Positions 5,513 to 61,251 of a DNA stretch of 64,000 nucleotides are shown here, in pieces. The first letter of the stretch is position 1. Each line of letters begins with the position of its first letter. This stretch comes from Malus domestica (taxonomy: Eukaryota > Streptophyta > Magnoliopsida > Rosales > Rosaceae): positions 40,249,501 to 40,313,500 of the forward strand of contig NC_091670.1 of NCBI RefSeq assembly GCF_042453785.1. Reading direction: 5' to 3'. The notes below the pieces were generated by a model. That model was not told where the DNA came from and did not search any database. It worked only from the letters and a program-made list of their open reading frames with translations. The position numbers and the translations under genes were made by a program.

Positions 5513-7345
5513 TCAAGCAAGAAACTCAATTTTGATGCTACCGATCTTAACAGCCTGAGCGCCGTACCTGGGCACCAAAGTCACCACCACACTCTCATCA
5601 TCTTCAGCACCCAAATCCTCCAACAGGTCCGTTAACCCCAACCTTAAACAACTCTTGCTCTTTTCCTTCTGCTTATGTGGCACACTCACAAAACTCCCAG
5701 CAAACTCGCTCTTGTCGGGTCCACTCGGTGCCGCATCCTCATCGTCCACGTCATTCACATACACATCAAACTTCACAGCCACATCTTTGTCAAGCTCAAT
5801 CCCCTGAATCACCAATATCTCCTCCTCATCCTCTTTCTCCTTCTTGCTCCTCTTCTTCGGCTTCGGCCTTGACACCACCGTACTTATCTTCGTCTCCAAA
5901 TTTATTGGAAAATCTTTACCCGCCACCACCTTCCCTGATGACGTCGTCTCAGCGGCCTTCGCCACTCCAGCCGCCTTTGCCTTTCTCGCAAGCTTTGTCC
6001 GACGTGGCGTCGGTCTAGACTTGAGCCATGGAATCTCAACATCTTCATACGTATACCCTAGCTTTTTATTATCAAGAGTGTCCCTCACCGTGACCCTAAC
6101 AAGCTCAGCATTCTCGTCATAAAACAAAAACCCCGTATCCAACCAATCCTTATCGTTAATATCTTTATTTTTAGTCCCTATACTTTTCCAAATATTCCAC
6201 ATTCGATCTATATTCGAATGGTGCGAAAAAAATATTGGATCCCTTCCAGCGGAGTAAAAATTCCCCATGTCTTCAAAATTAGGTTGCGTGTTATCTCCGG
6301 TCCATAAATGAACCGGACCATGTGGGGTCGTTTCGATTGAACCGCCCCCTGGATCTGGTTCAGTGCCAGCCCTGTAGGGCGAACCAAAGAACAACAGCGG
6401 TTTCTTGGAGTTGGAAACCATCTGCCTATACATAATTTTGAGGTTGGCTTCGATTTGAGCATCGTTGGACATTGTTTCATCCGTGCCGTTGAAGTCAAGA
6501 TCGATGAGAGTCGGCGGCTGATGGCTGGCAGCGCGAAGCTCGTCGTAAAGCGGAGAGTCCGGGTTAGCGAACAAGGCAGGGAGTTGCATGCCAGCTGGCG
6601 CGTCCCAGTTCCAAAACGGCAACGCGAACGTCGGATCGTCTATGAGTTTGGCCAAGATTCTTTCGTGGAAGTATAGGTAGTAACGATGGAAGGGGAAGAA
6701 AAGCCAGCATTGATGGATTTGGAGCTCGAGGTTGGGGAAGCCGACTTGGTCGTACGCGCCGTCGCAATAGGCACAGTGGAGATCGGCTTGCTGGGTGAAG
6801 CTACGCGGATCGTCGTCCGGGAGGGCTTTCATGAGCTCGATGGCTTTTGAATATTTTTCGATGTAGGCTTTATCCACGGTGTGAGCTGCCGGCCTGACGC
6901 GGAGTTTGGTAGGGGAGGGGAATTTGAAGTCTACGATTTTTTGGGACGTTGGCGGGCAACAGTTGGTCGGGACTGCTCCACTTGGAAAGTCCGCAGCTCC
7001 GCATTTGGCTAGGTCAGGCGGCGACACTGGCTTTGCAACAGCGAAGGGGTCGCTGCCAAGACCAGCCACTCCACCGTATAGGCTTCCGAGACCTATAAGT
7101 ACATTTCTTCTGTCTAGGTTTACTGGAGAAGGGTTTTCATGGTCGTGATCGTTGGAGCTAGTGGAAGGGTTTTTGTTTTGGTCACTACTATTATTTGTGG
7201 CTTTGCATGAGACAGCTTGTAAATTGGAATGCCTAGGGTTTCCAAATGAGGATATTCGGTGATACTTTTGGGAGAAAGGGGAGAGGAAAGTTGTGGGGAT
7301 GATACTTGTGGCGGAGGTGACGAGTGGAGCTGACATAGAAGCCAT
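5513..7345 (-). CDS. PPO: Polyphenol oxidase (catechol oxidase), block A copy
   Basis: Intronless 610-residue plastid polyphenol oxidase, which oxidises o-diphenols to o-quinones (browning, defence). Residues 1 to about 46 are a Ser/Thr-rich chloroplast transit peptide. A twin-arginine (DRR, 78-80) followed by a hydrophobic stretch and an AVA-K cleavage site near 104 indicate Tat export to the thylakoid lumen. CuA ligands are His190, His211 and His220, with Cys194 placed for the thioether bridge to His211. CuB ligands are His342, His346 and His376, with gate Phe363. The DWL motif (400-402), the YTYEDVEIPW stretch and a C-terminal KFDV domain (525-528) follow. The frame stays open 32 codons upstream to 7441, but that extension runs across the TATA box, so I start at MASMSAP, as in the block B copy. 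Against that copy I count 15 amino-acid differences, all in residues 12-367. One is Ser213 to Cys beside ligand His211. No break is seen and it should be functional. Confidence 0.96.
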   Translation of the reverse strand: MASMSAPLVTSATSIIPTTFLSPFSQKYHRISSFGNPRHSNLQAVSCKATNNSSDQNKNPSTSSNDHDHENPSPVNLDRRNVLIGLGSLYGGVAGLGSDPFAVAKPVSPPDLAKCGAADFPSGAVPTNCCPPTSQKIVDFKFPSPTKLRVRPAAHTVDKAYIEKYSKAIELMKALPDDDPRSFTQQADLHCAYCDGAYDQVGFPNLELQIHQCWLFFPFHRYYLYFHERILAKLIDDPTFALPFWNWDAPAGMQLPALFANPDSPLYDELRAASHQPPTLIDLDFNGTDETMSNDAQIEANLKIMYRQMVSNSKKPLLFFGSPYRAGTEPDPGGGSIETTPHGPVHLWTGDNTQPNFEDMGNFYSAGRDPIFFSHHSNIDRMWNIWKSIGTKNKDINDKDWLDTGFLFYDENAELVRVTVRDTLDNKKLGYTYEDVEIPWLKSRPTPRRTKLARKAKAAGVAKAAETTSSGKVVAGKDFPINLETKISTVVSRPKPKKRSKKEKEDEEEILVIQGIELDKDVAVKFDVYVNDVDDEDAAPSGPDKSEFAGSFVSVPHKQKEKSKSCLRLGLTDLLEDLGAEDDESVVVTLVPRYGAQAVKIGSIKIEFLA

Positions 7346-7386
7346 GGTTACTTTTGACTCTGAATAATACGTTGTATTGGCTTTGC

Positions 7387-7394
7387 TTTTATAA
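7387..7394 (-). promoter_or_regulatory. Probable TATA box of block A PPO
   Basis: On the minus strand the sequence reads TTATAAAA about 42 bases before the chosen ATG, giving a short 5' leader. The same element and spacing occur in the block B copy. Confidence 0.6.
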
Positions 7395-7477
7395 TGTGTT
7401 CTAGGTTGTACTTTTCTTTGCACAGGTGGCAGGCCGTACACACGTGGTCGGTCCTTAAGGGTTTGACGAGGAATACT

Positions 7478-7898
7478 ACGTAGTCATTTAGTACAGGACA
7501 ACCATACACTATAGCAAGTGGCATGTATTTAGAGATCGAGAGAGAATTGGGTAAGGTTCACGAGGGATTTGTAGTTTCAGAAGGTGAATTGGTTTTGGTC
7601 TTCTTGTGTACCAATAATATTTACTTAGTCATTTAGTGCAGGACAACCATGCACTATAGCAAGTGGCATGTATTTAGAGATCGAGAGAGAATTGGGTAAG
7701 GTTCACGAGGGATTGTAGTTTCAGAAGGTGAATTGGTTTTGGTCTTCTTGTGTACCAATAATATTTACTTAGTCATTTAGTGCAGGACAACCATGCACTA
7801 TAGCAAGTGGCATGTATTTAGAGATCGAGAGAGAATTGGGTAAGGTTCACGAGGGATTGTAGTTTCAGAAGGTGAATTGGTTTTGGTCTTCTTGTGTA
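7478..7898. repeat. Three tandem ~144-bp repeats upstream of block A PPO
   Basis: Units begin near 7478, 7623 and 7767, each opening with ac(g/t)tagtcatttagt and closing with cttcttgtgtaccaata; the third is slightly short. Block B has one shortened unit (about 39,597-39,720), and the tail of a unit also occurs at 62,356-62,400. The array begins about 130 bp upstream of the PPO start, so it may affect the promoter. Confidence 0.9.
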
Positions 7899-37640: not shown

Positions 37641-39473
37641 TCAAGCAAGAAACTCAATTTTGATGCTACCGATCTTAACAGCCTGAGCGCCGTACCTGGG
37701 CACTAAAGTCACCACCACACTCTCATCATCTTCAGCACCCAAATCCTCCAACAGGTCCGTTAACCCCAACCTTAAACAACTCTTGCTCTTTTCCTTCTGC
37801 TTATGTGGAACACTCACAAAACTCCCAGCAAACTCGCTCTTGTCGGGTCCACTCGGTGCCGCATCCTCATCGTCCACGTCATTCACATACACATCAAACT
37901 TCACAGCCACATCTTTGTCAAGCTCAATCCCCTGAATCACCAGTATCTCCTCCTCATCCTCTTTCTCCTTCTTGCTCCTCTTCTTCGGCTTCGGCCTTGA
38001 CACCACCGTACTTATCTTTGTCTCCAAATTTATTGGAAAATCTTTACCCGCCACCACCTTCCCCGATGACGTCGTCTCAGCGGCCTTCGCCACTCCAGCC
38101 GCCTTTGCCTTTCTCGCAAGCTTTGTCCGACGTGGCGTCGGTCTAGACTTGAGCCATGGAATCTCAACATCTTCATACGTATACCCTAGCTTTTTATTAT
38201 CAAGAGTGTCCCTCACCGTGACCCTAACAAGCTCAGCATTCTCGTCATAAAACAAAAACCCCGTATCCAACCAATCCTTATCGTTAATATCTTTATTTTT
38301 AGTCCCTATACTTTTCCAAATATTCCACATTCGATCTATATTCGAATGGTGCGAAAAAAATATTGGATCCCTTGCAGCGGAGTAAAAATTCCCCATGTCT
38401 TCAAAATTAGGTTGCGTGTTATCTCCGGTCCATGTATGAACCGGACCATGTGGGGTCGTTTCGATTGAACCGGCCCCTGGATCTGGTTCGGTGCCAGCCC
38501 TGTAGGGCGAACCAAAGAACAACAGCGGTTTCTTGGAGTTGGAAACCATCTGCCTATACATGATTTTGAGGTTGGCGTCGATTTGAGCATCCTTGGACAT
38601 TGTTTCATCCGTGCCGTTAAAGTCAAGATCGATGAGAGTCGGCGGCTGATGGCTGGCAGCGCGGAGCTCGTCGTAAAGCGGAGAGTCCGGGTTAGCGAAC
38701 AAGGCAGGGAGTTGCATGCCAGCTGGCGCGTCCCAGTTCCAAAACGGCAACGCGAACGTCGGATCGTCTATGAGTTTGGCCAAGATTCTTTCGTGGAAGT
38801 ATAGGTAGTAACGATGGAAGGGGAAGAAAAGCCAGGATTGATGGATTTGGAGCTCGAGGTTGGGGAAGCCGACTTGATCGTACGCGCCGTCGCAATAGGC
38901 ACAGTGGATATCGGCTTGCTGGGTGAAGCTACGCGGATCGTCGTCCGGGAGGGCTTTCATGAGCTCGATGGCTTTTGAATATTTTTCGATGTAGGCTTTA
39001 TCCACGGTGTGAGCTGCCGGCCTGACGCGGAGTTTGGTAGGGGAGGGGAATTTGAAGTCTACGATTTTTTGGGACGTTGGCGGGCAACAGTTGGTCGGGA
39101 CTGCTCCACTTGGAAAGTCCGCACCTCCGCATTTGGCTAGGTCAGGCGGCGACACTGGCTTTGCAACAGCGAAGGGGTCGCTGCCAAGACCAGCCACTCC
39201 ACCGTACAGGCTTCCGAGACCTATAAGTACATGTCTTCTGTCTAGGTTTACTGGAGAAAGGTTTTCATGGTCGTGATCGTTGGAGCTAGTGGAAGGGTTT
39301 TTGTTTTGGTCACTACTATTATTCGTGGCTTTGCATGAGACGGCTTGTAAATTGGAATGCCTAGGGTTTTCAAATAAGGAAATTCGGTGATACTTTTGGG
39401 AGAAAGGGAAGAGAGAAGTTGTGGGGATGATACTTGTGGTGGAGGTGACGAGTGGAGCTGACATAGAAGCCAT
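37641..39473 (-). CDS. PPO: Polyphenol oxidase (catechol oxidase), block B copy
   Basis: Intronless 610-residue paralogue of the gene at 5513-7345, about 97.5% identical by my residue count (15 differences). It has the same transit peptide, twin-arginine lumen signal (DRR 78-80), six copper-ligand histidines (190, 211, 220, 342, 346, 376), bridge Cys194, gate Phe363, DWL motif and KFDV C-terminal domain. It keeps HQSW at the second CuA ligand, has HTWTGD after the second CuB ligand and YSAARDP before the third, where the other copy has HQCW, HLWTGD and YSAGRDP. Residues 368-610 are identical in the two proteins, while I see five silent base differences there, so both genes have been under protein-level constraint in that part. 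Flanking sequence is also duplicated. It is probably functional. Confidence 0.96.
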   Translation of the reverse strand: MASMSAPLVTSTTSIIPTTSLFPFSQKYHRISLFENPRHSNLQAVSCKATNNSSDQNKNPSTSSNDHDHENLSPVNLDRRHVLIGLGSLYGGVAGLGSDPFAVAKPVSPPDLAKCGGADFPSGAVPTNCCPPTSQKIVDFKFPSPTKLRVRPAAHTVDKAYIEKYSKAIELMKALPDDDPRSFTQQADIHCAYCDGAYDQVGFPNLELQIHQSWLFFPFHRYYLYFHERILAKLIDDPTFALPFWNWDAPAGMQLPALFANPDSPLYDELRAASHQPPTLIDLDFNGTDETMSKDAQIDANLKIMYRQMVSNSKKPLLFFGSPYRAGTEPDPGAGSIETTPHGPVHTWTGDNTQPNFEDMGNFYSAARDPIFFSHHSNIDRMWNIWKSIGTKNKDINDKDWLDTGFLFYDENAELVRVTVRDTLDNKKLGYTYEDVEIPWLKSRPTPRRTKLARKAKAAGVAKAAETTSSGKVVAGKDFPINLETKISTVVSRPKPKKRSKKEKEDEEEILVIQGIELDKDVAVKFDVYVNDVDDEDAAPSGPDKSEFAGSFVSVPHKQKEKSKSCLRLGLTDLLEDLGAEDDESVVVTLVPRYGAQAVKIGSIKIEFLA

Positions 39474-39512
39474 GGTTACTTGACTCTGAATACTACGTTG
39501 TATAGGCTTTGC

Positions 39513-39520
39513 TTTTATAA
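39513..39520 (-). promoter_or_regulatory. Probable TATA box of block B PPO
   Basis: Minus-strand TTATAAAA about 40 bases before the ATG at 39473, in the same context as in block A. Confidence 0.6.
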
Positions 39521-39596
39521 TGTGTTCTAGGTTTTACTTTTCTTTGCACAGGTGGCAGGCCGTACACATTGGCGGTCCTTAAGGGTTTGACGAGGA

Positions 39597-41186: not shown

Positions 41187-42077
41187 TTAATTAAAGGGTA
41201 AATTACATAGTAACCCCTCAGGTTTGATGTCTATTACAACCCCATACAACATCTTTAAAACATTTCACTTTCATACCTCAAGTACTATTTTATTTCAATA
41301 TAATACATCTGTTAGATTTTCCATCCATTAATCCGTTAAATGCTGACATGGATACCACATTTGTGCCACGTGGCTGCCAAATGCGTGTCATGTGGCAAAA
41401 ATAATAATTTTTAAATTTAAAAAAAAATGAATCTTCAACCCAAAAAAAAAAAAAAAAAACCCCAAACCCAGATCCCATCAACCCCCCCCAAACGATTATC
41501 CCTTCCCCATATCCCCCATCCCACCCCCCAACCCCCCCTCTGCGACCAACCTTACCATAGCGCCCCCCAACCTCGCGACCCACCTCACTCAAGGCCCTAA
41601 TCCACACTACCTACAACCCAGAAACGAAAAAAAAAAACAAAAAACAAAAAACTCATCTCCCTTTCCCTGCAACCCAAATCCCATCTTCCCTAATGGGTAT
41701 GGATTTAAGAAGTGGGGTGTGTAGAGGAGGGAAGAGGGTGGGTGCGGAGGATGGGTATGGTGGGTTGCAAGGAAGGGGGGTCGGGTAAGATGAAGATGGG
41801 TTTTTTTTTTCTCTCTCTCTTCTTCTTCTTCTGGGTTGCAAGTTGTAGGTTGGGGTTTTTTTTTGGGGGGGGGGGGAGGGAGGGAGGGAAGACGACGTGG
41901 GGTTTGGTTTTTTTTTTTTAATTTATTTAGAAGATTTAGGTTTTTTGAAAAAAAAAAAAAAATTCCACGTGGCACAAATGTGGCAGCCACGTCAGCATTT
42001 AACAGATTAATAGATGGAAAATCTAACGGATGTATTATATTGAAATAAAATAGTACTTGAGGTTAGAAAGTGAAATG

Positions 42078-42434
42078 TGTTGATGCACAAAACCGAAGGT
42101 CTTTGAACAACGTAAATCCGATCGTGAATATGCAAGTAATGTAAATAACACAAGATGTATCGTGGTTCACTCCAATGTTTGGGCTACGTCCACACTGATT
42201 ATTGTATTTCTCTGAGAGGTGAGGGGGAGAGCTTTGAGAAAGCTTAGAGCTTAGGGGATGTGAGAAGGCTTAAGAATTGGCCTCCCTTATTTGTGAGGGT
42301 GATGAGTCCTTTTATAGAATAAGGGATCCTCACTTATTACATATTTGCCCATTCCTTTATTACATAATTACATTTAAGTCCCCTGAGTACTTGTACAAGG
42401 TCTAAATACGGAGGCCCTAAGTATGGTACAAACA
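42078..42434 (-). repeat. 3' LTR of the gene-carrying element
   Basis: 357 bp, closely matching the 45,797-46,151 copy (for example ccgaaggtctttgaac against ccggaggtcttggaac). The few scattered differences indicate a fairly recent insertion. Confidence 0.9.
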
Positions 42435-43640
42435 GTAGTCCCCCAAGTCTTCAGTCAAGAGAGTCTTTTGGCTAGAGACTTGAAATTCTGTCCATGTGTG
42501 AGCCGAAATAACTAGATGTCGTCTAGAACTGATATTTGATATGCGGCAGTGCCCATTTTGAAATAATGCTCAACTAGAAGTAGCACATGCTGCGAGGCTG
42601 CTCTGCTTGTGTTGCCTTGGTTGGCTCGACTTGTGGCGTTGAAGGTGAGAGAGTCCCTTTTATAGAATAAGGGCTCGCTCCTCATTACAAAGATGATGGG
42701 TTAGTTGGTGCTTGCGGTGAGGCGGATGCTCAGCTGGCGGCGATGCTCTCTAATGATAGTGAGGGAGTCCATTTTATAGAATAAGGGATCGCTCCTCAAT
42801 ACATAAATAATAGGTGCTCTCTAATGAAAGTAAGGGAGTCCCTTTTATAGAATAAGGGCTCACTCTTCAATACATAAATAATGGGCTAAGTCCCCTAAGT
42901 ATTTTTTATGAGGCCTAATTGAGGCCCAATATATGGTACATAATGTAGTCCCCCAAGTCTTCGGTCAATAGAGTCTGTTGGCTGGAGACTTCAAATTGAA
43001 TCCATGTATGGGCCGAAGTGGCGGTTGTTCGGAAGCGGTATTTGTATACCCTGCACTGAAGCTTTATAGGTGAAGCTTTGCAAGTGAAGCTTTGAAGCTG
43101 GAGCTCAGTAAATGAAGCTTTTGAAGCTAGAGCTTTTGTAAATGAAACTTTTGAAGCTGGAGCTCTATAAAGGAAGCTTTTGTAAATGAAGCTTTTGAAG
43201 CTGATTCACATGAGTGATGCTCATGAATGTTTATGTTGATTGATATGAGTGATGCTTATGGATGTTGACATGAGTGATGCTCATGGATGTTGACGTGATG
43301 CTCATGAATGTTAACATGAGTGATGCTCATGAATGTTTATGTATGATTGATATGAGTAATGTTCATGAATGTTTATGTATGATTGACATGAGTAATGCTC
43401 ATGTATAATTTGAAGTACTGGGCATACTTTTGATTACCTGGTTGGCGATAATAGCGGCAGGGTGCCGAATAATTTTTTGTAGTACTGGGCGTACTTTTGG
43501 TCACCTGGTTGGTGATAATAGCAGCAGGGTGCCGAATAATTTTTTGTAATACTGGTCGTCCTTTTGGTCACCTGGTTGGTGCTATTTTGAGCTTATGGGC
43601 CTTCGCCCTCTACACAACATTCCAGCCTATTTATTTTGGG
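42435..43640. repeat. Internal repeat-rich region of the element
   Basis: Three kinds of repeat are seen. A LTR-derived motif ccttttatagaataaggg is repeated at about 42,655, 42,770 and 42,840. Units of aagcttttgaagctggagct lie at 43,070-43,205 and gagtgatgctcatgaatgtt units at 43,210-43,410. There are three copies of a unit with cttttggtcacctggttgg at 43,430-43,590. No coding frame. It lies where the 3' part of pol would be. Confidence 0.75.
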
Positions 43641-43919
43641 CTTTACCGTTTTTTTTAATTACCCTATGATGGGGTTTATACAGATGTCTCCGAAAGATAT
43701 GAAAAATAAATTACATCATTCAAAAATAAATCCGACCCTCTGCTCAATGGGTCACGCCAATAATTCTTTTTTTTTATGCATGCCATCACCACCGCAATTA
43801 TGTCTGCTTCTTTTTATCTTCTTTTGCTTTCTGCTTTTGCTTTTACTTTATCTTTTCTCTTTTGGCATATGGCAGACAACGCCAAAACGGAATAATGAAT
43901 TATTATGAGAACATGAATC

Positions 43920-44393
43920 TTATCTTTTGCCTGGTTTTCCACTAGTGCTCGTGGTATTCTCAGGAGATTGGATCTGGGGGTAGGCGACTACCCCAGCACC
44001 TTGCCCTGATACGTAATAGCCTGATGTCCCACTGCCATCTCCATACTGGAAGGTGTACGAACAATGGTTATTCTGTGTGGAACAAATAGAATCCGATTGA
44101 GATTCAAGACTGCACCTTCGATCTGAGCAAGAAATGAATTGTGACGTTGATGAACTTCTAGGAGGAGAAGCAGAGGATCTTTGACTATGATGATCTTTGA
44201 ATTCCAGATGAAACTGAATAAAATGCAGGTTGTGGAGCTTGATGTGGGCCCAGATCTGCTTGACAGCTTTGGGGCGGGAGGATTCCTTGACACTGAGGAA
44301 GATTCCCAGAGCTGGAGGGATGAGAATCGACTTCATAATCCCGATGGTGGGTTTGTGCTTGGTCGAAAGATCATTTCTGGCAGGGGAAAACAT
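43920..44393 (-). pseudogene. Captured SWIB/MDM2 piece fused to an aspartic protease piece
   Basis: A 157-codon open frame. Residues about 16-56 (PTIGIMKSI, then [26 protein letters not shown]) match the first half of a plant SWIB/MDM2 domain. Residues about 72-130 ([15 protein letters not shown], then [18 protein letters not shown]) match the cysteine-rich insert of nepenthesin-type A1 aspartic proteases. Both domains are partial: the second half of SWIB is absent, and the protease lacks its active-site DTG and DSG segments. So no activity of either kind is expected. The join around residues 57-71 lacks similarity to either. Whether this frame is translated is unknown. Confidence 0.75.
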
Positions 44394-44484
44394 GTACCAT
44401 ACCTATTGCAAATCTTGCAAATTCTCTGCTTCTCCATGGAAGATGAAGAGCATCGAATCTCTGTTTTCTCTCTCTCTCTCTAAA

Positions 44485-44941
44485 ACGTTTTCGTTATAGA
44501 GTGCCCCAATAGAAGTGGACGGGCAGTGAGCATGCCATTTAGTGCCTCCTCCAAGACAGTAACTGATACGGTGGTCTTTATTGGCACTCCAAGTTTACTA
44601 AAAAGGGCAGCAAAAATAGTATTTACAGCACCCAAACTTGAAAGATCTAGCTCCAACTAGTGGCTTTCTGTTTCAACAGCCTGAAAGCCGGCAGTGTCAT
44701 ACCGACGCCGTTTGTCTGGATCAAATAATATATTATAAGAAAACATGACCTTCTTGAAGATATCAGCTGTTTTAGAGTCATTAGCATTTTTGTCAGGATG
44801 GTACTTGAGAGCCATTTTCCGGTAAGCACTTTTGATTTCCTGGTTGGTGGAATTCCTATTGAGGCCGAGGACCGCATAAGGGTTTTGTCGGAGCTGCTTC
44901 TTAGCTTCTTGCTTCTCCGATTTTGATCGGCTGCCCTGCAT
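44485..44941 (-). pseudogene. Captured J-domain (DnaJ, ARG1/ARL-like) gene fragment
   Basis: A 94-codon frame opens with MQGSRSKSEK. It then gives a J domain: PYAVLGLNRNSTNQEIKSAY, with the HPD motif at 48-50 and DPDKRRRYDTAGF. A stop then replaces the next codon, but similarity continues in the same frame (LELDLSSLGAVNTIFAAL, then FSKLGVPIKTTVSV) to about 44,485. That continuation is typical of the ARG1/ARL family of plant J proteins. There is no intron in about 450 bases, consistent with capture from an mRNA. About 120 bp upstream look like the source gene's 5' leader. Without its C-terminal part it is not a working chaperone gene. Confidence 0.85.
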
Positions 44942-45203
44942 TTTTGAAATTGACGGTCAATTTCTTCACAAAACCCTAGAAATTGCCTCTCGATTACCTC
45001 CGAAACACATAATTCACGACTCTTGGTTGAAATTTTTTTTTTTCATTTCAAAGAAGTGGCGGAGGTAAATCAGTTGTCACATAGCACCGGAGCATGAGGA
45101 AAACCTAGAAAACCAAGAGGCAGAGAGACTCCATGCACATCTAACCTGGAACCTTGCAGGAGAGAGCAGAGAGAAAGAGACAAGAAAGATTGAGGGAGAA
45201 GCG

Positions 45204-45404
45204 ATCTTGGTGCATCGTCTGTGATTCCTTGGTGATTTGCTCGATCGGGACTCTGAATTCGTGCAAGTCATTGCTGTTAAGCAAGAATCGCGAGGAGTCG
45301 GAGAGCTTGGAAATCGAGAAGGAGAGAGGGCCTTTAGTCAGGGCTTGGAGGGTGTCGGACTCCGTCGGCCAAGATTGGTGCACGGTCACGGCGTCTGGGC
45401 CCAT
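45204..45404 (-). pseudogene. Probable captured RRP6-like exosome nuclease N-terminus
   Basis: Minus-strand frame reads DTLQALTKGPLSFSISKLSD and, further on, HEFRVPIEQITKESQTM. This resembles the start of plant RRP6-like nuclear exosome 3'-5' exonucleases (PMC2NT region: TLQ.LT.GPLS.SISKL, F..F..FK.PI.EI...SQSM). Only this N-terminal stretch is present. The call is by recalled pattern and is the least sure of the captured pieces. Confidence 0.4.
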
Positions 45405-45796
45405 GGCGGTTGTGTAAATGGGGGAGGTTCTAGGAGTCCAAGAAAGAAGAAGAAGCAGCGACCATAGATCTGGGAGTCCATGGCGCTTGAAAGATACGGC
45501 GAACAAGTCGGACTTGCTGCTGGGCAGCTGGCGGTGATAATGTTGGTGCATGGGTTTTGGAGTGGGAGTGTTTGGAATGGGTTTTTTGTTTAGTTTCTAT
45601 GTGTTTTTTCACAGAGAGAGAGAGAGAGAAGTGATGGTGTTTAAGGGATGAGTTTTGGAGCTTAGTGAATGCTTTTTCTGGAAAAGCCCAGTGAGGTTTG
45701 TGGGTTTTTGCAGATTTTGCAGATTCGCGGTGGAGGTGAAAGAATGAAAGAGAACCGACACAACTTTTCGTATTGATTCCCACATACGGCGCCAAA

Positions 45797-46151
45797 TGTT
45801 GATGCACAAAACCGGAGGTCTTGGAACAACGCAAATCCGACCGTGAATCTGCAAGTAATGTAAATAACACAAGATGTATCGTGGTTCACCCCAATGTTTA
45901 GGCTATGTCCACACTGATTATTGTATTTCTCTGAGAGGTGAGGGAGAGCTTTGAGAGAGCTTAGAGCTTAGGGGATGTGAGAAGGCTTAGGAATTGGCCT
46001 CCCTTATTTGTGAGGGTGAGAAGTCCTTTTATAGAATAAGGGTTCCTCACTTATTACATATTTGCCCATTCCTTTATTACATAATTACATTTAAGTCCCC
46101 CGAGTATTTGTACGAGGTCTAAATACGGAGGCCCTAAGTATGGTACAAACA
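45797..46151 (-). repeat. 5' LTR of the gene-carrying element
   Basis: 355 bp, followed on the minus strand by the primer-binding site at about 45,775-45,795. Confidence 0.9.
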
Positions 46152-46230
46152 AAATGTTTTAAAGATGTTGTATGGGGTTGTAATAGACCTCAAACTTGAG
46201 GGGTTACTATGTAATTTACCCTTAATTAAA

Positions 46231-58483: not shown

Positions 58484-60329
58484 TGGCGAGCCTCATCCCA
58501 AAGTGCATGCTTCTCTGCCAAAGAAAAAGAGTCTACCAGAGTTAGATATTCTTTCATGATCAATTTTCTAAATAGCGGGTGGTCTGCTGGAAGGCCTTTT
58601 TGGAAGGCTGCTCTAGCTATTGAGTCGCTGCATCCGACTATCATTGCCTTCTCTGTTTTGAATCTCTTCACATAGTCACGAAGTGACTCCTTTGGGTTCT
58701 TTTTTACGTCAAACAAATGGTCGGACTTCTTTTTGATCGAGCAATAAGATGAATATTCTTTGGTGAAAACCAAAGAAAGTTCGTAGAAATTCTAGATAGA
58801 TTGTGGCGGCAGGGTGTAGAACCAATCTTGTGCCTCGCCTTCATAGTGGTGGCGAATATCTTGCACATGAGATCATCGTTGTTTCGATAAAGGATCATTG
58901 TGCTTCGGTAGCGCTTTAAGTGTCTCTTCGGGTCTTCATCCCCTTTGAAAGATATGAAATGTTGCATACTGAACTCGCATGGAGGCTCTGCCAGCTCGAT
59001 CTCATCCGTGAAGGGTGACCTGCTTATGTTGGTCATGTTCCGTCGTAGTGCCTCGTCGGTGACCTTGTTGCGTTAGAAATCATGCAATCGCTTGATTAAA
59101 AGTCTCTCTACTTCTTCCTGAATTTTCATTTGTTAGGGTAGCAGAGCTCTCGGCTGCCCCTAGCCATAACTTACTGGTCTAGGATGCTCTTCCATGTGTT
59201 TGGCTCGTCTATACCGTGGATGCAGTGTATGTGGTGCGGTCCTAGTAGGTGAGCGAGTTCTTCGCAGGCTGCTAGTTGAACTTGAGCTGGATTGAGTGAC
59301 TACTTCTCTCCGTCCGTCGTGCTGCCTACTCCAATGTGAGGTGAAAGATGCTCCTTGCAGGCTTAGCCACGAATGAACACTTTACCTGGAAGGTTGCTCA
59401 TGTTGACTATCAGAGTATGACCCTAACCGTGAATGTATATTCACCCGTGGGCTTAGTCGAGAGTGCACGCTCCTCCGCGCGCTAAGACGAGAGTATACGT
59501 TATCTCGGGAGCCCAATTGGGAGTGTACACTGCCCGAACGCTCGGCTCGTGGCTGGTCGAGTGGCTGCTTGCCGAAACGCTGCGGGAAAGGTTCGTCTGC
59601 CCTTGTCCTACTTCGGGATACCTTGTTTGGGGCACGTTGGATTCTGGTGCATTGCAAAAGTTGATTCACCAAGGTTGTCTGTTGTGCAAGGGTGCTCGTA
59701 AACGCTACGACTTGTCGAGACAAGTGTTGTTCGTCATTTGGATTGGAATAGCTTGGAAGGAATGTGCCTTCTTGGGCAGTGGAAGGGTGGTAGACTCCGG
59801 GCTCGAGATTTGAGTTGGGAAATGTCAAATCTACGAAAAAATGTGGTGAGAATGCCCCCGGCTCGATGGTAGGTCCGGATGGTTGAGATAGTCTTGGGCC
59901 GACTTGGGCTGCTTGGAAAGCCACGGGAGCAGGCTGGGCCACGAGAGTGAGCTGCTCGGCAGGAGTAGGCTGGGCTACGAGAGTGGGCTGCTCGGCAGGA
60001 GCAAACTGCTTGGAGTGTGATGCACATGGGTGCGAGGCTTGGGCTCGGCTTGGTAACACATTGAGTTCGGGTTTGGCTTGGAGTGACATGACTTGGGCCG
60101 TGGCCTTGGTGTCGTGAGCCTTGGATGGCACGGCTCGGGCAGTGGTAGCTGTGCCATGGACCTCGCCGCGGGTAGTGGTGACCGTGATGGCCACCGCGGT
60201 GGTTGCCATGGTGGAGCCCCGTAGTGATGGTGCCGCTCCTATGATCACATTTAGCCTCGTGGATCGTCGTGGTCCCATTTCTTGAATATTAGAATTTTCA
60301 CTTATGGAATTTTCTAAATTTCTAGCCAT
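58438..60329 (-). pseudogene. gag gene of the gypsy element (broken)
   Basis: A start at 60,329 (MARNLENSISENSN) heads about 315 codons of a Gln/Pro/Ala-rich, arginine-rich N-terminal region ending near 59,382. After a frame break the capsid-like Retrotrans_gag domain follows: FISFKGDEDPKRHLKRYRST (59,036-58,704), then ESLRDYVKRFKTEKAMI and AFQKGLPADHPLF (58,773-58,438). The longer frame to 60,530 only adds sequence overlapping the LTR and leader. No CCHC knuckle or protease is seen because the deletion runs from here into RT. Confidence 0.8.
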
Positions 60330-60493
60330 TATATTTTTCTTATACGTTTTATCAAAGAACCTTTGCAAATAAAAAATTCTAATAATAAGAACGTATGAAA
60401 AAATATTCAAATGGACTAGAAAATAGAGAAAAACCTTTTTATGCGAGAGTCTTCTACGAGTATAGATCTCAACTCTCAATGAAAGCACCAATT

Positions 60494-61251
60494 TGTGGAT
60501 GCAAATTTCTTCCTCCTTGATCCTAGACAATTTTGCACCTACAAAACAATTAACACCTTAGGTTAAGGCCAAGAGCCTCACACGCCCACGATGAATGGGG
60601 GGGCTTTGGCCGAAGAACCTCTGATGCCAAAGTTAGAATTTAGAGAGATAGAGTGTTCAGAGAATTTTGAGATTTTTGCCAAAGTGTTGGAATGGATTTT
60701 TGGTGAGAATGGGATCACTTTTATAGGGATAGGAAGTGGCCGGCCTAGCTAGGGTTTTTGGGTTTAATTTAGGTTTAATTAGTCAATTTATTTGGCTAAT
60801 TAAACCCTAAAGAATAAATTGGTGGTTACAAAATTGATTATTTGTATAAATGGGGTAATAAAATGGAGAAAGGTGAAAAAGGTTAGGAAAAGGGAGGTGG
60901 CCGGCTTCTTAGTGGTTTTAGGTGTGAGTGGGTGTTTTAATTGATAATTAAGGGATTCATTAGGTAATTAATCAATTTTTAGGGAATATGAAAGGAAAAT
61001 ATTATTTAGCTAATTGATTAGCTAAATAATGGAATACAAAATATATAGAACAAATTAGGTATTAGGAATTACCTTATAGAAAGGATTTGATGAAATAAGC
61101 TTTAAATTGTTACCTATTTTGGGCACTTTTGACTTGGTTGAGGATGATTGTCTGCCGCTCACGCGTAGGAATCTCGATATGCCTCAAGGGTATTTTTGTT
61201 CTCTTTTACCCAAAAATCCACGTGTCGCCTTGTGATTATTTTGGCTCCACA
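60494..61251 (-). repeat. 5' LTR of the gypsy element
   Basis: 758 bp. On the minus strand it is followed by the primer-binding site at about 60,475-60,492. Confidence 0.88.

Follow-up and report, generated by a model that had tools for sequence, protein, structure and literature searches.

The 64,000-nt stretch of apple (Malus domestica) DNA considered here, called the window below (NCBI RefSeq assembly GCF_042453785.1, contig NC_091670.1, positions 40,249,501 to 40,313,500 of the forward strand), includes a long terminal repeat (LTR) retrotransposon, referred to as the window copy, whose cargo consists of pieces of six unrelated host genes set between a leader and a repetitive tail (Table 1). 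Full-length relatives elsewhere in the genome share its ends and carry other middles.

An earlier description made from the letters alone (the sequence-only reading) listed paired LTRs, a perfect AAATG target-site duplication (TSD), a primer-binding site (PBS), and a polypurine tract (PPT), with no retroviral-type domain. All of these hold: the LTRs are identical in 339 of 357 aligned columns, and none of the 10 open reading frames (ORFs) scanned against Pfam contains a gag-pol domain; the minus-strand orientation can now be added. Read in element sense, the parts run from 5′ LTR through PBS-like site, leader, cargo, A/G-rich stretch, tandem-repeat tail, and PPT to 3′ LTR. The LTRs end in TG..CA, as expected for an LTR element (the end bases are altered in a few relatives). 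The distance between the two LTRs (K = 0.047) corresponds to an insertion roughly 2 million years old at a plant substitution rate of 1.3e-8 per site per year, or older if the rate in trees is slower. The LTR had no match in a plasmid collection. The TGTT/AACA subfamilies of Rosaceae were considered and rejected, their LTRs ending in TG..TT or AA..CA rather than TG..CA (PMC5659011).

Six host-gene pieces and their donors

The interior was compared with the whole genome in three stretches, with 59 candidate matches (40 scored), 1443 (40 scored), and 13 (all scored). The six pieces, all in element sense, have donors on six different chromosomes (C12, C14, C13, C7, C2, and C3). This disposes of a single host gene as the source, and is more than the three or four donors of the sequence-only reading, which had overlooked the fasciclin-like arabinogalactan protein (FLA) and C2H2 zinc-finger pieces. 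Pfam searches of the donor DNA identify five of them: Fasciclin; PMC2NT and DNA_pol_A_exo1; zf-C2H2_6; SWIB; and TAXi_N/Asp. The DnaJ piece is identified by its exon matches to the donor and by the element's own Pfam match (E 1.8e-23, in the frame at 44657-44956). The probable RRP6-like N-terminus of the earlier description is borne out by way of its donor: the frame in the element itself has no useful Pfam match (0.031, to an unrelated family) and only a weak best match to PDB sequences (E 0.44), while in a large protein set (E <= 0.001, 64 candidates) it matches four Malus hypothetical proteins (P0040-P0043) and none with an assigned function. All donors but that of the FLA piece have a weaker second match on another chromosome (C12, C16, C1, C7, and C11); these are presumably homeologs.

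Four of the six pieces (pieces 1-4) begin upstream of the donor start codon and include that codon, and the upstream stretches are read here as 5′ untranslated regions (UTRs). The end of the SWIB piece is no more than 1 nt from that of the donor exon. No clean microhomology rule is apparent by eye at the window-copy junctions; part of the gap between DnaJ and zinc finger resembles, again by eye, the zinc-finger upstream sequence with a longer GA run.

The DnaJ piece, earlier described as the start of a J-domain gene with its leader and no intron, proves to cover four donor exons. It matches the donor in blocks at 5741043-5741436, 5742058-5742186, 5742363-5742447, and 5742548-5742659. The three intervening stretches (621, 176, and 100 bp) are introns, bordered by GT and AG, and the element runs straight across them. 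The template of this piece was therefore a spliced mRNA. Relative L061 likewise matches the donor of the protease piece in three blocks (235-453, 809-939, and 1059-1237) that follow one another directly, the two intervening gaps being absent. In all three members whose cargo was searched against the genome (the window copy, L049, and L042), at least one piece corresponds to separated, ordered genomic blocks, as would be produced from spliced mRNA.

Multi-exon pieces without the sequence between exons could also be processed pseudogenes, that is, poly(A)-type retrocopies inserted serially into the element or by chance in the same place. This is hardly credible for six same-sense pieces only 12-60 nt apart, none of which covers the 3′ end of its donor; by eye, the window-copy junctions show neither a poly(A) tail nor a TSD, and each of the 16 elements compared has its cargo between leader and tail. 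Read-through transduction, in which transcription running beyond the LTR of an older insertion would pick up each piece from an adjacent gene, is a known capture route of retroelements (PMC13317346). It is improbable here, given that the six donors are on six chromosomes, that the pieces are inside the element and not beyond an LTR, and that four of the six are the 5′ part of a gene rather than its downstream flank.

Table 1. Features of the window copy, in window coordinates; 5′ and 3′ refer to element sense, and C numbers with coordinates give donor positions.
Feature	Position	Strand	Basis
LTR element, 4074 bp	42078-46151	minus	paired LTRs, TSD, PBS-like site, PPT
TSD copy AAATG	42073-42077	none	flank comparison
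TSD copy AAATG, second	46152-46156	none	flank comparison
5′ LTR, 355 bp, TGTTTGTA..CATCAACA	45797-46151	minus	LTR alignment
PBS-like site TTTGGCGCCGTATGTGGGAA, just inside 5′ LTR	45777-45796	minus	position and motif
Leader	45576-45796	minus	comparison with members and genome matches
Piece 1: FLA, stretch upstream of start and first codons	45446-45575	minus	donor C12:4859137-4859266(-), 92%
Piece 2: RRP6-like exoribonuclease N-terminus	45212-45425	minus	donor C14:679874-680111(+), 83%
Piece 3: DnaJ-domain gene, stretch upstream of start and four exons	44488-45198	minus	donor C13:5741043-5742659(+), 92-98%
Piece 4: C2H2 zinc-finger gene, stretch upstream of start and first codons	~44406-44475	minus	donor C7:32360428-32360497(-), 94%
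Piece 5: SWIB-domain half	44224-44368	minus	donor C2:28249282-28249426(+), 90%
60 nt between SWIB and protease pieces	44164-44223	minus	no separate donor among the 40 matches scored
Piece 6: nepenthesin-type aspartic protease, within one donor exon	44006-44163	minus	donor C3:12638164-12638321(-), 94%
Open frame of 160 codons (stop to stop) across SWIB and protease pieces	43920-44402	minus	ORF list and Pfam
3′ tail	42435-44005	minus	in order, segment common to relatives, A/G-rich tract, and tandem repeats that recur across members
PPT GAAGACTTGGGGGACTAC, just inside 3′ LTR	42435-42452	minus	position and motif
3′ LTR, 357 bp	42078-42434	minus	LTR alignment

Shared ends and different middles

A first look at the genome with the LTR gave 4451 candidates, of which 40 were scored, so that the copy number is known only to be large. 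Twenty regions were taken around the best LTR matches; these are the LTRs most like those of the window copy, and the sample is therefore not random. Fourteen of the regions hold 15 full-length elements (two of them, L038a and L038b, in region L038), five hold a lone LTR (L040, L044, L047, L048, and L050), and L045 has the 3′ part only. The 15 members share with the window copy the LTRs, the PBS-like site (with some changes, including an insertion in L034), the first ~60-100 nt of the leader, the PPT (at most two differences in each), and the tail, with its repeats rearranged. Matches to the leader elsewhere in the genome extend to ~200 nt. LTR identities range from 0.924 to 0.980. By eye, 11 of the 16 elements, the window copy included, have perfect 5-bp TSDs and three have TSDs agreeing in 4 of 5 bases; L038a and L038b have no clean TSD at the coordinates used.

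The middles are another matter. The cargo of the window copy has no match longer than 50 nt in any of the other 15, and among these, matches above the same length are confined to the last ~490 nt before the tail. Pfam (E <= 0.001) was applied to ORFs of 60 or more codons from the 15 middles, 111 in sense and 86 in antisense. No gag or pol family was found in either set, which leaves the sampled members without an ordinary gag-pol to which the gene motifs might belong. The sense ORFs match 16 families: DnaJ, DnaJ_C, GIP1_N, MIP, EAF, TORTIFOLIA1, SMAX1 NBD, TIM, four overlapping RING models, ribosomal S21, SOUL, linker histone, and PRA1, with the SOUL and PRA1 matches under their curated cut-offs. 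Single scans tie a Pfam match to eight of the 15 elements (L031, L033, L034, L035, L037, L038b, L039, and L049); the singly scanned ORFs of the remainder (L032, L036, L038a, L041, L042, L043, and L046) have none. The TORTIFOLIA1, ribosomal S21, linker histone, and second DnaJ ORFs fall outside the singly scanned set.

Genome searches with two of these cargos give further donor sets. That of L049 (65 candidates, 40 scored) includes a GIP1 gene in five blocks (C3), a TIM gene in three (C10), and a C11 gene in three, together with a C1-derived piece read by eye as SR45-like. That of L042 (62 candidates, 40 scored), in which three ORFs were singly scanned with no Pfam match, includes a C17 gene in three blocks; its further single-block matches could be to donors or to other elements, which were not told apart.

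Some other cargos were read individually. L038:5858-7346 contains a DnaJ_C piece, a DnaJ domain, and a second DnaJ_C piece in that order, as if an HSP40 mRNA had been taken up twice. Downstream of the leader in L025 are frames that by eye look like pieces of alpha-tubulin and PRA1. L030 and L046 share, again by eye, a histone-H1-like start directly after the leader, so that this cargo lineage has two copies or more.

A possible mosaic history of the window copy

Among the matches listed, the full cargo of the window copy is present at one other locus, L051 on C13 (91% over element positions 1-2211; the 3′ LTR is incomplete in the sequence used), while the 15 sampled relatives carry other cargo. 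L051 has all of the donor blocks compared; the zinc-finger donor was outside that comparison, and an L051 frame reads into the zinc-finger start. Three other relatives share parts. L059 (C3) has the leader, an FLA piece bounded as in the window copy, and an RRP6 piece that is longer; the DnaJ, zinc-finger, SWIB, and protease donors have no match in it. The protease piece recurs with the same 3′ junction in L060 (C1) and L061 (C11), whose upstream cargo differs and includes, in L060, the N-terminus of an oxidoreductase (ADH_N_2). Individual modules, with identical junctions, are thus common to the window copy and these relatives, which suggests that it is a mosaic of two lineages: an L059-like leader, FLA, and RRP6 arrangement would be joined to an L060/L061-like protease and tail, with the DnaJ, zinc-finger, and SWIB pieces between.

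L059 also retains a 20-nt remnant of its own leader between FLA and RRP6. When two leader patterns were searched for in 20 elements, no other match lay outside a leader; in a control with single-base shuffles, each pattern had one match in 50 rounds of 20 interiors. The position of the remnant suggests that FLA was inserted in a later round, between the leader and an RRP6 piece already present.

Template switching as the probable source of the cargos

We favor, with a probability of about 0.86, the reading that the window copy belongs to a non-autonomous LTR family with fixed ends and an exchangeable middle, formed by reverse transcription in trans, during which the enzyme switched templates serially to mRNAs and to the RNAs of sister elements. 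Repeated switching between cellular mRNAs and element RNA, already suggested by the sequence-only reading, is thus supported.

Reverse transcription of the retroviral type is primed at the PBS, moves by transfer to the 3′ end, and proceeds from there toward the 5′ end of the RNA. In the proposed route, element RNA would be packaged and reverse-transcribed by the proteins of an autonomous partner. Minus-strand synthesis would copy the tail; at the A/G-rich stretch that precedes it, the enzyme would depart from the element RNA, jump into the interior of an mRNA, often run to or near the mRNA 5′ end, and jump again, landing finally on the leader of an element RNA. That landing would restore the PBS and LTR ends, making the product able to integrate. 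Switching could also be onto a second element RNA with an older cargo, so that modules would accumulate and be shuffled. The route resembles the capture of oncogenes by retroviruses. It predicts same-sense spliced pieces, entered anywhere and often exited at 5′ UTRs, and the window copy, with start codon and upstream sequence in four of its six pieces, fits these predictions.

More tentatively, and with somewhat less than an even chance, the family might be an RNA-level exon-shuffling vehicle, with its cis requirements at the two ends, its middle free, and mRNA switching a regular part of its replication. If so, a genome with thousands of these LTRs could hold hundreds of distinct multi-gene cDNA mosaics, and mosaics transcribed from the LTRs could give rise to new chimeric ORFs, and perhaps also to small RNAs directed at the donor genes.

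Several points weigh against the template-switching reading. Only one of the six pieces in the window copy, DnaJ, spans introns, the other five being single-block, and splice borders were read for the DnaJ donor only. The SWIB and protease pieces begin inside their genes, so the 5′-end pattern is not universal; the idea that every piece begins at an mRNA 5′ end was dropped on this account, leaving a tendency. Between the aligned pieces are 12-60 nt without a donor match. The 86 antisense ORFs match two Pfam families, PH and V-SNARE, so that a few captures may be in reverse orientation (the PH piece was placed in L039 by eye). The protein source, the packaging of mRNA, and the mobilization in trans are steps that we infer.

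Cargos also recur. That of L042 is found again at C3:34003508 (99%) and C16:19511469 (91%), with parts elsewhere, and parts of that of L049 at C5:6195071, C2:25035300, C9:30677589, and C5:46598098; independent captures are therefore fewer than copies. Shared modules could have spread by DNA-level recombination between integrated copies, and it is conceivable that module sharing is mainly of this kind, with a few old RNA-level captures later recombined by unequal exchange or gene conversion. Unlinked copies that share modules with the same junctions, whole cargos that recur, and the high copy number indicated by the first-look LTR candidates would all be consistent with this. It leaves unexplained, however, both the loss of the DnaJ introns and the differing middles of the 15 sampled members, and the perfect TSDs of 11 of 16 elements indicate that those copies integrated as units and were not made in place. 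We regard module sharing and shuffling mainly at the DNA level as unlikely.

The chimeric SWIB-protease frame

The sequence-only reading had placed the SWIB and protease pieces in one open frame of 157 codons. The joining stands (SWIB E 6.6e-7, TAXi_N E 3.6e-8 in Pfam); from stop to stop the frame has 160 codons. Both domains are partial, with 32 of 74 and 63 of 176 profile positions, and against PDB sequences the frame has only a weak best match (E 0.24). An annotated 255-aa Malus domestica protein, P0001, is 91% identical and combines DnaJ, SWIB, and TAXi_N within a single gene model. As a warning to annotators, Malus domestica "hypothetical proteins" (P0001 and P0040-P0043) match element cargo.

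The pieces might be imagined as a working chimeric gene under selection, encoding a DnaJ-SWIB-protease protein with the element as its vehicle. The open frame, the three domains of P0001, and the stop-to-stop frames of 206 and 209 codons in sister copy L051 could be taken in this sense; the partial SWIB and TAXi_N domains, the ending of the window-copy DnaJ frame before the SWIB frame, and the fact that an automatic gene model such as P0001 is no proof of a protein make it quite improbable.

Neighboring genes

Two long minus-strand frames in the window, at 37641-39533 and 5513-7483, are polyphenol oxidase genes with tyrosinase, PPO1_DWL, and PPO1_KFDV domains. The element is ~2.5 kb upstream of the former and in the same orientation, and could therefore affect its promoter. 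A 391-codon stop-to-stop frame at 59382-60557, also on the minus strand, has no Pfam match at E <= 0.001.

Comparison with known systems

Multi-gene capture by LTR elements is already known, from Bs1 and from a soybean terminal-repeat retrotransposon in miniature (TRIM). The maize element Bs1 is a low-copy element that has kept part of gag. The sequence-only reading cited it as a single-gene capture, which is not so: it contains pieces of three genes, forming a chimeric gene (PMC13317346), and its cargo is exons only (PMC4717578). Template switching has been reported for Veju and BARE-2 (PMC13317346). The window copy resembles Bs1 in having several unrelated host-gene pieces without introns in one element (with introns testable in one of the six), and differs in having 15 sampled relatives with other middles and no gag domain in the ORFs scanned.

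Thirty gene-carrying TRIMs of 1.2-1.4 kb, in seven subfamilies, are described from Medicago and soybean, with exons and no introns in soybean GmaRetroS15 and three genes in one element (PMC4717578). These too are non-autonomous LTR elements with intronless captured exons. The apple elements are outside the very small size of TRIMs as described there, at 3.5-5.1 kb (3451-5074 bp for the 15 other members), and multi-block gene pieces are found in the window copy, L049, and L042. Host genes inside LTR elements have also been counted in rice and sorghum, at 672 and 1343 (PMC3726574); these are described as annotated genes within elements, rather than as one backbone with swapped multi-gene cDNA mosaics.

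The apple family has further partial counterparts. Large retrotransposon derivatives (LARDs) likewise have paired LTRs, PBS, and PPT with no coding capacity for movement. LARD interiors are conserved within a family, which is not found here, where only leader and tail are conserved. Pack-MULEs and gene-capturing Helitrons are DNA transposons with fixed ends and varying sets of gene fragments, and are in this respect functional analogs; Helitrons make no target duplication and usually keep introns in their cargo. The apple elements differ from Helitrons in having TSDs, and from Pack-MULEs in having direct LTRs rather than terminal inverted repeats. Pack-MULE cargo includes introns (PMC4717578). 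The DnaJ piece, the one in the window copy that spans donor introns, lacks them and so departs from both groups. In a full-text search that covers subscription literature thinly, no LTR family with swapped cargo, from apple or other plants, was recognized among the top-ranked titles and abstract openings.

Gene capture by LTR elements has so far been argued mostly from single cases with few junctions. A family in which the ends are fixed, the cargos many, and the donors still present in the genome would, through the junctions its members have in common and the remnant of a leader, amount to a sequence record of successive template switches. In such a family the frequency of capture, the points of entry into and exit from mRNAs, any bias to highly expressed genes, and the passage from chimera to gene all become testable.

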